A stretch of DNA of 64,000 nt, taken from Zeaxanthinibacter enoshimensis. Lineage in GTDB: Bacteria; Bacteroidota; Bacteroidia; Flavobacteriales; Flavobacteriaceae. The notes beneath the pieces were generated by a model. That model saw only the letters and a list, made by a program, of their open reading frames with translations, ran no database searches and was not told the DNA's origin. The stretch spans positions 772,099 to 836,098 of the forward strand of contig NZ_SNYI01000002.1 of assembly GCF_004362865.1 (NCBI RefSeq), given 5' to 3'. A program made the translations under genes and the position numbers. The stretch's first letter is position 1. Every line of letters begins with the position of its first letter. This document shows, piece after piece, positions 17,453-47,823 of the stretch.

Positions 17453-17682
17453 AGAGGAGACATCGGATTCGGTTAAAGCTTATTTATTATTCGAATCCAG
17501 GCATTAGAGCAACTCTGCAGGTCATGGATTTTTGAAAAACCCATTTCCAGGAGTACTCCTGCAGAAAAGGAAGCGGGATAATAATGCTAAACCGTGAAGG
17601 TATCGTTTAATCGCGCGCGGGAGTATGAGATTAATCTTCAGTTCCATACATTCTTTTTGGACAATAATTTAAAGAAAGGCTA

Positions 17683-17721: not shown

Positions 17722-17806
17722 GGAGGAATGGCAGAGTGGTCGAATGCGGCAGTCTTGAAAACTGTTGAGGGTCACACCTCCGGGGGTTCGAATCCCTCTT
17801 CCTCCG
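17722..17806 (+). tRNA. tRNA-Ser (TGA anticodon)
   Basis: An 85-base class II tRNA. Acceptor GGAGGAA pairs with TTCCTCC, discriminator G at 17806. The anticodon loop CTTGAAA gives anticodon TGA (Ser). A long variable arm (GAGGGTCACACCTC region) and T arm GGGGG-TTCGAAT-CCCTC follow, though the T-stem has minor wobble. CCA is not encoded. Confidence 0.96.
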
Positions 17807-17809
17807 CAT

Positions 17810-17841
17810 AAAAACCCTGGGTGTAAGCCAAGGGTTTTTTT
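17810..17841 (+). terminator. Terminator of tRNA-Ser
   Basis: An imperfect stem AAACCCTGG / CCAAGGGTTT (one bulge) with a T run. The T run is also the start of the left arm of the long palindrome that follows. Confidence 0.7.
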
Positions 17842-17912
17842 ATTCCCCAAGCGTACCGAGCTCGCTCGGTTAAGCGAAGGGGAATAAAAAAGACCACGAT
17901 GCGATAGCATCG
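17836..17912. repeat. Nested palindromes downstream of tRNA-Ser
   Basis: Outer arms TTTTTTATTCCCC (17836-17848) and GGGGAATAAAAAA (17879-17891) are perfect complements. Inside them a smaller hairpin is formed by ACCGAG and CTCGGT. A third hairpin CGATGC-GATA-GCATCG follows at 17897-17912. This can form a cruciform-like structure and marks the left border of the repeat region. Confidence 0.7.
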
Positions 17913-18078
17913 GGTTTTTAATGCAGAACCCCCTCCCGGGGATCGCGAGCGAAGCGAGTAATCCGCTATCTCAGTAAGCAGTTTGCAGTTTGCAGTGGGC
18001 AGTAGGCAGTCTAAGTTCGAAGTTCGAGGTTTGAAGTTCGAGGATCGCGGTTTGCAGTATGTAGTTCGAAATTCGAGG

Positions 18079-18093
18079 CCTGCCAATGGCAGG
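18079..18093. repeat. Short GC palindrome in repeat region 1
   Basis: CCTGCCAATGGCAGG, a perfect hairpin with a 3-base loop, sits between heptamers. It looks like a shortened form of the 38-bp palindromes at 18243 and 18430. Confidence 0.7.
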
Positions 18094-18464
18094 TAAATTC
18101 GAAGTTCGAAGTTCAAAGTTTGCAGTTTGCTGTTCGAGATATAAAGCATTACTACTACATTGTCACCCTGTCCCCTTTGTCATCTCTGTCACACTTTGTA
18201 ACTATGTACCTGTGTACCTAAGTAACGGTTCGAAGTTTGAGGCCTGCCAAAGGCCCGTCCGACCGGCACGGGCGGGCAGGTAAATTCGAAGTTCGAAGTT
18301 CAAAGTTTGCAGTTTGCTGTTCGAGATATAAAGCATTACTACTACATTGTCACCCTGTCCCCTTTGTCATCTCTGTCACACTTTGTAACTATGTACCTGT
18401 GTACCTAAGTAACGGTTCGAAGTTTGAGGCCTGCCAAAGGCCCGTCCGACCGGCACGGGCGGGC
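18091..18464 (+). repeat. Two 187-bp tandem units identical as read
   Basis: Bases 18091-18277 and 18278-18464 read as identical. A third copy begins at 18465 and matches for about 44 bases before diverging near the core. Each unit holds heptamers, the core, the 9- and 8-bp arrays and a 38-bp GC palindrome. Identity implies a recent duplication (or an assembly effect) compared with the degenerate neighbouring copies. Confidence 0.9.
18243..18280. repeat. 38-bp GC-rich palindrome, copy 1
   Basis: Arms CCTGCC / GGCAGG and GCCCGT / ACGGGC give a REP-like hairpin interrupting the heptamer run. A second identical copy is at 18430-18467. Confidence 0.75.
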
Positions 18465-18467
18465 AGG
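18430..18467. repeat. 38-bp GC-rich palindrome, copy 2
   Basis: Identical to 18243-18280, placed at the junction of the second and third 187-bp units. Confidence 0.75.
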
Positions 18468-18879
18468 TAAATTCGAAGTTCGAAGTTCAAAGTTTGCAGT
18501 TTGCTGTTTGAGATATAAAGAAATTTACTCCATCGTCACCCTGTCCCCTTTGTCACCTTTGTCACCCATTTAACGGTGTGACGGCGTGACGGCCTAACGG
18601 TGTCCCGGATTACCCGCCTGCAAGTTTTCTGCACTGAATTCATTTAACTTGAGCATGGGGCGGGGTTAAGAGCCCCGGTTTTCAGTAGGCAGTTTGCAGT
18701 GGGCAGTAGGCAGTCTAAGTTCGAAGTTCGAGGTTTGAAGTTCGAGGTTTGAAGTTCGAGGTTGGAGGTTCGAGGAATGTAGTTTGCAGTTCGCGGTTTG
18801 CAGTTTGCTGTTCGAGATATAAAGCAATACTATTCCATCGTCACCCTGTCCCCTTTGTCCCTCTTTGTAACTATGTACC

Positions 18880-18938
18880 CCGCCCGTACCAGACGGCACG
18901 TTCCTGCCCGACTACGTCATTCAGGCGGGCGGGCGGGC
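18880..18938. repeat. 59-bp GC-rich palindromic insert inside an 8-bp array
   Basis: It lies exactly between TATGTACC and TGTGTACC, two octamers that are adjacent in the sister copies. Its ends are complementary (CCGCCCG / CGGGCGG). This looks like insertion of a small palindromic element into a pre-existing array. Confidence 0.6.
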
Positions 18939-19223
18939 TGTGTACCTTTGTAACGGTTCGAAGTCTGAGGTTTGAAGTTCGATGTTCGAGGAATGTAGTT
19001 TGCAGTTCGCGGTTTGCAGTTCGCGGTTTGCAGTTTGTTGTTCAAGATATAAAGCAATACTATTCCATCGTCACCCTGTCCCCTTTGTCACCTCTGTCAC
19101 ACTTTGTAACTATGTAACTATGTACCTGTGTACCTATGTAACTATGAATCTAAGAACCAAAGTACCCATCCCAATACTATTTTTTATATCATCTTTGCAT
19201 GGTTAACACGATAAGACCACAGT

Positions 19224-46120: not shown

Positions 46121-47437
46121 ATGTCACGACTTAAACTCCTCCTCATTAGTGCAGGAATGATTATGTTTCTTATGGGATTGTTATTCATTTTCAATAGTCC
46201 CCAACCCGGATCAAAACCTGAAATGAGCGCGTCTACAGATCAGTTTAAAGAGATCCGGATACCTCAGGAAGAGATTATATTATATAAAAGCCGTCAGGAG
46301 GAGTTGCAGGCGGCGTTACAAGCATATTTTGATGAGGCTATCGCGGCAGGCGATATAGTAGGAGCAGGGGTAAGCATCGTTAAGGGGGATTCGATCGTGA
46401 TTTCTGATGGCTTCGGAAAGCGAAATATTCGGAACCAGGAAGAGGTAGATGGTCAGACTATATTCAGGCTGGGATCGCTGTCAAAAGGTTTCACCGGGAT
46501 CCTGGCAGCCGATTTTATCCATGAAGGCAAGTTGCATTGGGAGGATAAGGTGAAAGACTATATCCCGGAATTTCAATTGGGAGATCCCCAGCACACCGAG
46601 AAGATCACCTTGGCCAATATTCTTTCCCACACTGCCGGAGCCCCTTACCACAGCTTCACCAATTTGATTGAAGCCGGGCTGCCACTACAGGATATTGCCC
46701 CCAGATTCAAAGAAGTAAAACCCATCAGTAACCCCGGAGCTCTTTACAGTTACCAGAATGCTTTGTTTGCACTCTCAGGTGAAATGATGCACAAAGCAAC
46801 AGGGCAGGGTATCAGGAATTCTCTCGAGCAGAGGTTCTTTAACCCTTTGGAAATGTGTTCTACCACCATGGATCACGAAACACTGCTCAATAACTCCAAT
46901 GTTGCCTTACCCCATTCAAAATGGCGCAAAAGCTGGAGACCGAAGAAACTGAATGATCATTATTACAATGCTATAGCGGCAGGCGGAATCAGTGCCAATG
47001 CTGAGGATATGGGTAAGTGGATGCGTTTTGTATTGGGTCACAACCCTGAGATCATGAGCAGATCAGCCATAGAGGAGACTTTCAAACCATATATAGAGAT
47101 AAAAGGGCATAGTAAATACTACCAGCGCTGGCCCGGGCACGTATCCTCGTATTACGGCTTCGGATGGAGAATTCACAAAATGACAGAGGATAATGCTGAG
47201 CGGGAAACAACAATCTGGCACCACGGCGGGAGTGTAAATAATTACAGGAACGAGATCGCCATATACCCGGAAGCTGACCTGGGTATTTGTGTGCTCTTAA
47301 ACTCCAATTCCAGACTAGCCAGGACAGTAGTTCCGGATCTTTATGCAATTGTGAAGAAGGTATTTAGGCAGCCTGATTCCCATATGGCTTATAAAGGCTT
47401 GCCTGAGTGCAGGGGGCATAATGTGGAAGAGGGGTAA
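46121..47437 (+). CDS. Beta-lactamase-family (class C-like) serine hydrolase
   Basis: A 438-residue membrane-anchored protein (segment about 8-24). Class C motifs: SLSK in RLGSLSKGFTG, YQN in YSYQNALFA, and HHGGSVNNY near the C terminus. Such enzymes hydrolyse beta-lactams, D-amino-acid peptides or esters; true resistance activity cannot be inferred. The last codons and the stop lie at the edge of the repeat region, so the C-terminal tail (after about 425) may be altered by it. Confidence 0.87.
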   Translation: MSRLKLLLISAGMIMFLMGLLFIFNSPQPGSKPEMSASTDQFKEIRIPQEEIILYKSRQEELQAALQAYFDEAIAAGDIVGAGVSIVKGDSIVISDGFGKRNIRNQEEVDGQTIFRLGSLSKGFTGILAADFIHEGKLHWEDKVKDYIPEFQLGDPQHTEKITLANILSHTAGAPYHSFTNLIEAGLPLQDIAPRFKEVKPISNPGALYSYQNALFALSGEMMHKATGQGIRNSLEQRFFNPLEMCSTTMDHETLLNNSNVALPHSKWRKSWRPKKLNDHYYNAIAAGGISANAEDMGKWMRFVLGHNPEIMSRSAIEETFKPYIEIKGHSKYYQRWPGHVSSYYGFGWRIHKMTEDNAERETTIWHHGGSVNNYRNEIAIYPEADLGICVLLNSNSRLARTVVPDLYAIVKKVFRQPDSHMAYKGLPECRGHNVEEG

Positions 47438-47823
47438 AGGTACATAGGTACATAGTTACAAAGGGTGACAAGGGTGACAGAAGGGACAGGGTGACGATGG
47501 AGTAGATTTCTTTATATCTCGAACTGCGAACTGCGAACTGCAAACCGCAAACATCAAACTTCAAACTAGAAACCGGGACGCCGTCAGGCCGTCAAGCCGT
47601 CACACCGTACAATGGGTACATAGTTACAAAGGGTGACAAAGGTGACAAAGGGGACAGGGTGACGATGGAGTAGATTTCTTAATATCTCGAACTGCGAACT
47701 GCGAACTGCAAACCGCGAACTGCAACCCGCAAACCGCAAACCGCGAACCGCGAACCGCAAACCTCAAACCTCGAACTTCAAACTTCAAACTTCAAATTTC
47801 GAACCTCAAACCTCAAACTTCGC
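47438..47823 (-). repeat. Composite 7/9/8-bp repeat element, region 2 (two cores, inverted relative to region 1)
   Basis: Non-coding and filling the gap between two convergent genes. Read on the minus strand, it has the same order as region 1. First come heptamers, then the core (TTAAGATATT or TATAAAG-type; complements of TTAATATCTC and TTTATATCTC near 47680 and 47512), then GTCACCCTGTCCC, 9-bp units and 8-bp units. Bases 47688-47820 are 19 heptamers in unbroken phase (plus-strand CRAACYK); the first 11 end in G and the last 8 in T, matching the proximal GCRG and distal GARG blocks of region 1. A GGCGTGAC-type octamer run lies between the two copies. Confidence 0.9.

Follow-up and report, generated by a model that had tools for sequence, protein, structure and literature searches.

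The window, the whole 64,000-bp stretch of DNA analysed here, belongs to the genome of Zeaxanthinibacter enoshimensis. The gap between a tRNA-Ser gene and a 108-aa ORF in the window is occupied by a composite repeat tract, and the features are listed in Table 1. A preliminary description had noted five copies that share a fixed order around a core; all five cores were confirmed, and the copies lie at 17.98–19.15 kb. The alignment of seven copies showed that the order also holds: 7-mers, core, ATCGTCACCCTGTCCC (ATTG... in copies 1 and 2), 9-mers and 8-mers, the 3′-ends of copies 3 and 4 being eroded. Copy 3 carries 8-mers of the TGACGGCG type in place of the TATGTACC type, and copy 4 has lost one 9-mer and has a palindrome amid its 8-mers. 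Copies 1 and 2 had zero differences across 131 aligned bases. With at most one mismatch, the core matched 7 times in the window, versus a mean of 1.32 and a maximum of 6 in 100 dinucleotide shuffles. The arrays reported by TRF in the tract have units of 7, 14 and 21 bp, with one 8-bp array and a 187-bp tandem. Two ORFs of at least 80 aa overlap the tract (17772–18149, minus strand; 18749–19117, plus strand), and both appear to be born of the arrays. The preliminary description had missed the minus-strand copies 6 and 7 (47.43–47.86 kb), the nested palindromes and the H element.

Table 1. Features of the composite repeat tract and of the second core site in the window.
Feature	Position	Strand	Remark
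tRNA-Ser, flank on one side of the tract	17722-17807		
Composite intergenic repeat tract, five unit copies	17980..19150	+	between tRNA-Ser and 108-aa ORF
Palindrome GCCTGCC...GGCAGG within 7-mers	18242..18280; likewise 18079-18093, 18429-18467	+	sequence
Composite unit in tandem, 187 bp x2.6, covering copies 1-3	18088..18565	+	TRF, 96% matches
Copy 1: 7-mers, core GAGATATAAAG, 9-mers, 8-mers	18100..18230	+	core 18136-18146
Copy 2	18287..18417	+	core 18323-18333
Copy 3, 8-mers of TGACGGCG type	18474..18604	+	core 18510-18520
H element: CTGCA-N7-TGCA dyad, TTAACTT, G-rich hairpin	18617..18682	+	sequence model 18618-18681, 62.9 bits, E 1.3e-18 (score not independent, as the model was built from copies including this H)
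7-mer array, GTTYGAR then GTTYGCR, heading into copy 4	18717..18816	+	TRF
Copy 4, 8-mer array split by GC-rich palindrome	18778..18959	+	core 18814-18824
GC-rich palindrome within copy 4 8-mers, CCGCCCG...CGGGCGGG	18880..18938	+	sequence
Copy 5, longest 8-mer array among the five	19008..19150	+	core 19044-19054 AAGATATAAAG, one mismatch
108-aa ORF, other flank of the tract	19224		
Copy 6	47430..47556	-	core 47510-47520
Copy 7	47600..47724	-	core 47678-47688 GAGATATTAAG
7-mer arrays heading into copy 7	47686..47822	-	TRF

The Z. enoshimensis genome has a size of 3.34 Mb in 12 contigs. Nowhere in this genome but at the two window sites, 29 kb apart, does the core stand beside the GTCACCCTGTCCC block. 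The search of other genomes that had been proposed gave no match to the whole-core pattern among 84,980 other species genomes. Four loci with other near matches to the core (L002, L003, L008 and L015) were read, and there was no array beside any of them. The exact core is confined to the two window sites, which rules it out as a genome-wide element, whereas the architecture recurs in 37 tracts of the genome with other cores. Four GTTYGMR units with at most one mismatch gave 177 matches in this genome versus 1 for the reversed control, and three units with at most two mismatches gave 375 versus 33. The sampled tracts repeat the same grammar with locus-specific cores; the sample consists of 18 stretches around places among the matches listed and covers few of the places beyond 156 kb of contig C3, and some loci were read as motif strings rather than as full letters. 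The loci at 1360–1366 kb of contig C1, found via the 9-mer pattern, are further tracts of this kind whose cores differ.

The 37 tracts showed a strong strand polarity. Motif classes, H included, lie 844 times on the 7-mer strand versus 19 times on the opposite strand. The counts (7-mer strand/opposite) are 322/4 for GTTYGAR and 169/0 for GTTYGCR, two classes that define the tract strand and are polar partly by construction; without them the count is 353 versus 15. The other classes gave 135/7 for the 9-mer, 57/2 for the 8-mer, 49/4 for class D, 102/2 for class B and 10/0 for H. In the order test, whose motif classes had been defined by eye from part of these data and whose tracts had been chosen for their 7-mers, GTTYGAR preceded GTTYGCR 56 times versus 25, GTTYGCR preceded the 9-mer 28 times versus 4, and the 9-mer preceded the 8-mer 25 times versus 7; 0 of 1000 shuffles reached any of these values. 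The order 8-mer before GTTYGAR (13 vs. 0) was reached by 24 of 1000 shuffles, and the order 9-mer before GCATCACC type (9 vs. 2) by 17. The same test was weaker in 25 tracts of the congener Zeaxanthinibacter sp. PT1, where 88 of 1000 shuffles reached the order GTTYGAR before GTTYGCR, 75 reached GTTYGCR before 9-mer, and only 9-mer before 8-mer stands. The recurrence of a preferred order in the 37 tracts, and more weakly in PT1, bears out the early view that random microsatellite slippage does not account for the tract. In 133,858 bases of Z. enoshimensis stretches, 114 tandems of period 7, 62 of period 8, 2 of period 9 and none of period 10–11 were counted (the window's 9-mers are too degenerate to register with the tandem counter), and one shuffle of the same stretches had 0 tandems of period 7–11.

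The tracts are mainly intergenic, with 7 of 489 7-mer units located inside ORFs of at least 100 aa. The genes flanking 36 tracts of Z. enoshimensis are convergent in 10 cases, tandem in 10 + 6 and divergent in 8, with one neighbour missing in 2, and no gene-orientation rule was seen. The upstream neighbour is on the same strand in 20 and on the opposite strand in 15 of 35 cases (12 vs. 5 within 60 bp), and in PT1 in 11 and 12 of 23 cases (9 vs. 5 within 60 bp). Orientation relative to gene ends, a check that had been suggested for the core, showed no clear bias for tracts or for H, and both strands are used by tracts and H along the three large contigs. With this orientation pattern, the suggestions of a transcribed or a chromosome-structuring element found no support. 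Several tracts begin with TA|GTT, which makes a TAG; stop codons as an insertion target were considered and, given the strands of the upstream neighbours, not upheld. Palindromes of the form GCCTRCC...GGYAGG break up the 7-mers; 17 of the 24 do so in a single phase, preceded by TTYGMR and followed by TAAATTYGMR.

The site of the window tract is also occupied in PT1. The PT1 tract has 24 7-mer units versus 41 in Z. enoshimensis, and contains roughly four repeats of an approximately 165-bp unit in which tRNA 3′-flank sequence is included; the window core was not found at this site. In PT1 (L140, compared with window positions 17453–17624), tRNA-Ser is preceded by an additional 1.4 kb or so of sequence that appears to be coding. 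Both flanks of 12 tract-bearing Z. enoshimensis intervals lie within the PT1 stretches, and 7 of these 12 hold at least two 7-mers in PT1, all or most of them oriented as in Z. enoshimensis; this occupancy is biased upward because most of these stretches were chosen by matching the window tract. One of the seven also has a single 7-mer on the other strand. The remaining five hold at most one 7-mer each: four contain H copies, among which L096 also has variant 7-mers and one also has an extra gene, and the fifth contains only a gene. A thirteenth interval, placed by synteny (L166), holds one 7-mer and a few variants, which makes 7 of 13 overall. Synteny alone placed the L099 region, where the three intervals flanked on both sides have 7-mer counts of 0, 1 and 3. 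The reverse case was seen once, in an interval with 0 7-mers in Z. enoshimensis and 8 in PT1.

The exact four-unit 7-mer pattern was found in 12 of 299 genomes of the family, with 111 matches in Z. enoshimensis, 33 in PT1 and 1 to 18 in the ten others. Two of these ten are close to the reversed control (G214, 18 vs. 15; G258, 5 vs. 9). The three-unit pattern gave 15 matches versus 7 for the control in MAG SS_bin_70 and 0 in strain CP2B. Eleven loci from the ten genomes were read by eye, and they showed simple 7-mer arrays with no composite. The simple arrays at L105 (G013) and L104 (G214) stop just short of an ATG, and the protein at L105 is presumably similar to RecN. At L108 (G200), a four-unit array apparently lies inside a coding frame, as judged by eye.

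Neighbouring tracts share cores. Among 22 tracts, alike cores were found in 6 of 24 pairs less than 60 kb apart versus 3 of 207 other pairs, and 0 of 5000 permutations reached 6; the 60-kb limit was set after a first look at core-pair distances, and three of the six near pairs come from a single trio, one pair is separated by 59 kb, and one, scoring 0.46, narrowly clears the limit of 0.45. That earlier look used other bins: of 120 core pairs at 2–40 kb, 20% were alike, and about 1% or less at greater distances. The window core pair lies on opposite strands and has a similarity score of 0.94. The local sharing of cores is consistent with ectopic conversion or a template switch between repeat arms, as well as with local transposition.

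The H element is a conserved element of about 65 nt between the 8-mers and the next 7-mers. A sequence model built from 53 copies detected H in all four Zeaxanthinibacter genomes examined and scored 52 matches in Z. enoshimensis, 52 in PT1, 23 in SS_bin_70 and 106 in CP2B. In 95 other relatives searched with the model, only G026 (1 weak match) and Phaeocystidibacter luteus had matches. The model found 185 matches in 394,884 selected bases. In the 150 best copies, which were selected by the model itself, the TGCA-N7-TGCA dyad, a TWANCTT block and GGGGNGGG are near-invariant. The stem varies along with its partner (GGGGTT, GGGATC, GGGACC, GGGACT, GGGATTA and others). A perfect stem of at least 5 was present in 96 of 132 G-run copies, versus a mean of 48 and a maximum of 59 in 200 shuffles exchanging the 3′ halves. 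The hairpin is kept by compensatory change. RNAalifold reported no covariation in the first H alignment, which we attribute to misaligned hairpins of unequal length, and the stem test was used instead. Five of the 150 copies lie inside long ORFs.

The H element and the arrays are separable, since CP2B has H together with 0 7-mers and 0 tandems of 7 or 8 bp in 19,006 bases. Tandem series of H whose spacers are unique and in which 7-mers are scarce or absent were observed in PT1 (L158, C4:101500–106500) and at L160 and L145, which indicates that H can multiply alone. The end of contig C2 (L190) and the start of contig C3 (L191) of Z. enoshimensis both consist of tandem H with a spacing of about 80–100 bp, beside sequence that we take to resemble the end of 5S rRNA. 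The PT1 contigs C4, C5 and C6 also start or finish in such H-type repeats. Tandem H repeats break assemblies.

An exact 21-base piece of H, TAACTTGARACCGGGGMGGGG, was found in 13 contig stretches among the 84,980 species: three in PT1, one in CP2B, one in SS_bin_70 and eight in P. luteus. It is thus limited to Zeaxanthinibacter and P. luteus, which belongs to another family of Flavobacteriales. The H model had 26 matches in P. luteus, or 42 in a closer search, and those listed cover approximately model positions 19–65, the part from TTAACTT to the hairpin. The letters near the H-like motif of P. luteus are different, with AAGCCTC 7-mers, CCAACCCT 8-mers and different palindromes. A regular expression for H-like sites, which is loose and yields more sites than the H model, showed tandems of 7 or 8 bp within 250 bp downstream of 18 and upstream of 3 of 34 sites in P. 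luteus (0.10 at random positions). The corresponding values were 37 downstream and 30 upstream of 113 sites in Z. enoshimensis (random 0.22), 54 and 55 of 165 in PT1 (random 0.14), and 0 and 0 of 47 in CP2B (random 0.01). The units of Zeaxanthinibacter are chained, and arrays flank the H-like sites on both sides about equally. Three P. luteus loci (L230, L231 and L239) have a recurring near-palindrome block around AAACGTTTA and CGGCTAGTTTTCA, 5′ of the H-like hairpin. Three others (L229, L233 and L234) have a second GGGG hairpin in the opposite direction, AGAACTTC.

The tract family is strand-polar and ordered, has 7- and 8-bp periods, lies between genes at spots common with the congener, shares cores locally and has a covarying H hairpin. 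We propose with moderate confidence that the window tract represents a single locus of a noncoding, satellite-like family of composite tracts at the level of the genus, which would be maintained by slippage, unequal recombination and short-range copying and probably has no gene-regulatory role. The unit on one strand comprises, in order, often H, GTTYGAR 7-mers, GTTYGCR 7-mers, a locus-specific core, 9-mers (TGTCACCTT-like), TATGTACC 8-mers and other 8-mers (TGACGGCG, GCATCACC). The numbers of short units may change by slippage, and whole units may multiply via unequal recombination, as the 187-bp unit of the window and the unit of about 165 bp in PT1 suggest. Cores may move from one tract to its neighbour when ectopic conversion or a template switch takes place across the repeat arms, and such passage would keep the order. 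The tracts may persist where insertion is tolerated, being tolerated rather than used. Slippage and conversion are suggested here by comparison across loci and species rather than across isolates of one species. Our confidence in this satellite-like reading was lowered because the synteny-placed intervals share fewer arrays than the matched ones.

We speculate, tentatively and with some doubt, that H is the seed of a bacterial satellite. A DNA-processing activity would stall or re-prime at H, arrays of 7 or 8 bp would grow on its 3′ side, and the product would be copied to neighbours and give a polar composite. This idea arises because P. luteus also pairs an H-type hairpin with 3′ arrays of 7 or 8 bp in other letters. 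The arrays on both sides of H in Zeaxanthinibacter, and the H copies without arrays in CP2B, argue against it.

A reading of the unit or of H as a non-autonomous mobile element is unlikely; such an element would make local hops with the help of an enzyme acting in trans, and arrays would grow at its landing sites. The preliminary description had raised mobility, and one part of that suggestion stood: neighbouring tracts have alike cores on either strand, which means short-range copying. The single phase of the palindromes within the 7-mers is consistent with a mobile element, and the restriction of TAACTTGARACCGGGGMGGGG to Zeaxanthinibacter and a species of another family would fit horizontal passage. 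However, many tract positions are common to both species, and ten paired sites examined by eye revealed no recognisable target duplication. For a comparison with MITEs or DNA transposon derivatives, with their terminal inverted repeats and target-site duplications, no clean empty site was among these ten. The Y1 transposase (PF01797) had 0 matches in Z. enoshimensis versus 5 positives among 14 control genomes, so a RAYT route was rejected. The reverse transcriptase (PF00078) had 0 matches in Z. enoshimensis, PT1 and P. luteus and 2 in CP2B, and a route by retron, group II intron or DGR was likewise discarded. Window positions 18700–19165 had no phage or plasmid match and TAACTTGARACCGGGGMGGGG was not found in viral contigs; a phage or plasmid origin was therefore set aside.

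We consider it quite improbable that H serves as a regulatory module, promoter-like or RNA-like, with the tract transcribed as a 5′ hairpin followed by repeat RNA. The rigid spacing of H, its dyad, the TTAACTT shortly before the G-run and the compensatory change in the hairpin are compatible with such a role. The gene upstream of H is on the same strand in 78 cases and on the opposite strand in 58, a mild excess among chained and so not independent copies, and it raised our confidence in this possibility. The downstream gene shows no rule (55 same strand vs. 59 opposite), which argues against H as the promoter of the adjacent gene. The motif TTTG-N17-21-TAnnTTTG, which we take to be the Bacteroidota promoter consensus, occurs 6 times on the array strand of the Z. 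enoshimensis tracts, 0 times on the opposite strand and 0.3 times in shuffled sequence. It has 0 matches in the PT1 tracts, and the arrays are TTTG-rich anyway; promoter-like 9- and 8-mers were judged a weak candidate. Rfam matches in the window and 7 loci were only tRNAs.

It is very improbable that the tracts are just ordinary heptanucleotide microsatellites, long simple sequence repeats whose neighbours are there by chance: 7-mer arrays of related letters in 10 of the 299 family genomes, without a composite at the 11 loci read, fit such repeats, but the order and polarity tests, the spots common to two species and the presence of H do not.

Several known bacterial repeats resemble parts of the tract. 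REP/BIME palindromes associated with RAYT are dispersed intergenic hairpins with nested palindromes. H is likewise a short, intergenic palindromic hairpin in many copies with nested palindromes nearby, but it is longer, has conserved non-hairpin blocks, and occurs in a genome where no Y1 (TnpA_REP) transposase was found. The STRR sequences of cyanobacteria are heptanucleotide intergenic arrays like those of Zeaxanthinibacter, but they are known as a single array type. Among long simple sequence repeats (LSSRs), 7-bp units dominate most repeat-rich genomes and are scattered across phyla, and an interaction with DNA polymerase has been proposed (Mrazek 2007, as summarised in PMC4679880). The tracts of Z. 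enoshimensis resemble LSSRs in having tandem units of 5–11 bp beyond chance (177 vs. 1 in the control), mostly between genes. They differ in that 7-, 9- and 8-bp arrays follow a preferred order on one strand, around cores and with H. TAACTGA heptamer arrays occur in Beggiatoaceae, Cyanobacteria and five Bacteroidetes, including Gramella forsetii, and are absent from the same spots in close relatives of the latter (PMC4679880). They are intergenic heptamers as in Zeaxanthinibacter, whose units are GTTYGAR/GTTYGCR instead, and the part of PMC4679880 consulted here describes no 8- or 9-mers, polar order or hairpin module for them. The GGGNATC quadruplex heptamers of Xanthomonas and Nostoc are genome-wide, intergenic and near gene ends (PMC4692102). 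Unlike them, the GTTYGMR units have no GGG run, and the consulted part of PMC4692102 does not describe an ordered multi-array. Heptanucleotide arrays are thus already known; no description of polar 7-9-8 composites or of H was found in the open-access literature searched.

The tracts have a genome-wide repeat grammar of three periods that is strand-polar and keeps to common spots in two species while the letters turn over, which resembles eukaryotic satellites. They offer a tractable bacterial case for asking why units of 7 and 8 bp are favoured, how cores reach neighbouring tracts and whether a hairpin sets this in motion. The H motif is common to two distant families, so that one can look for an enzyme that both have.
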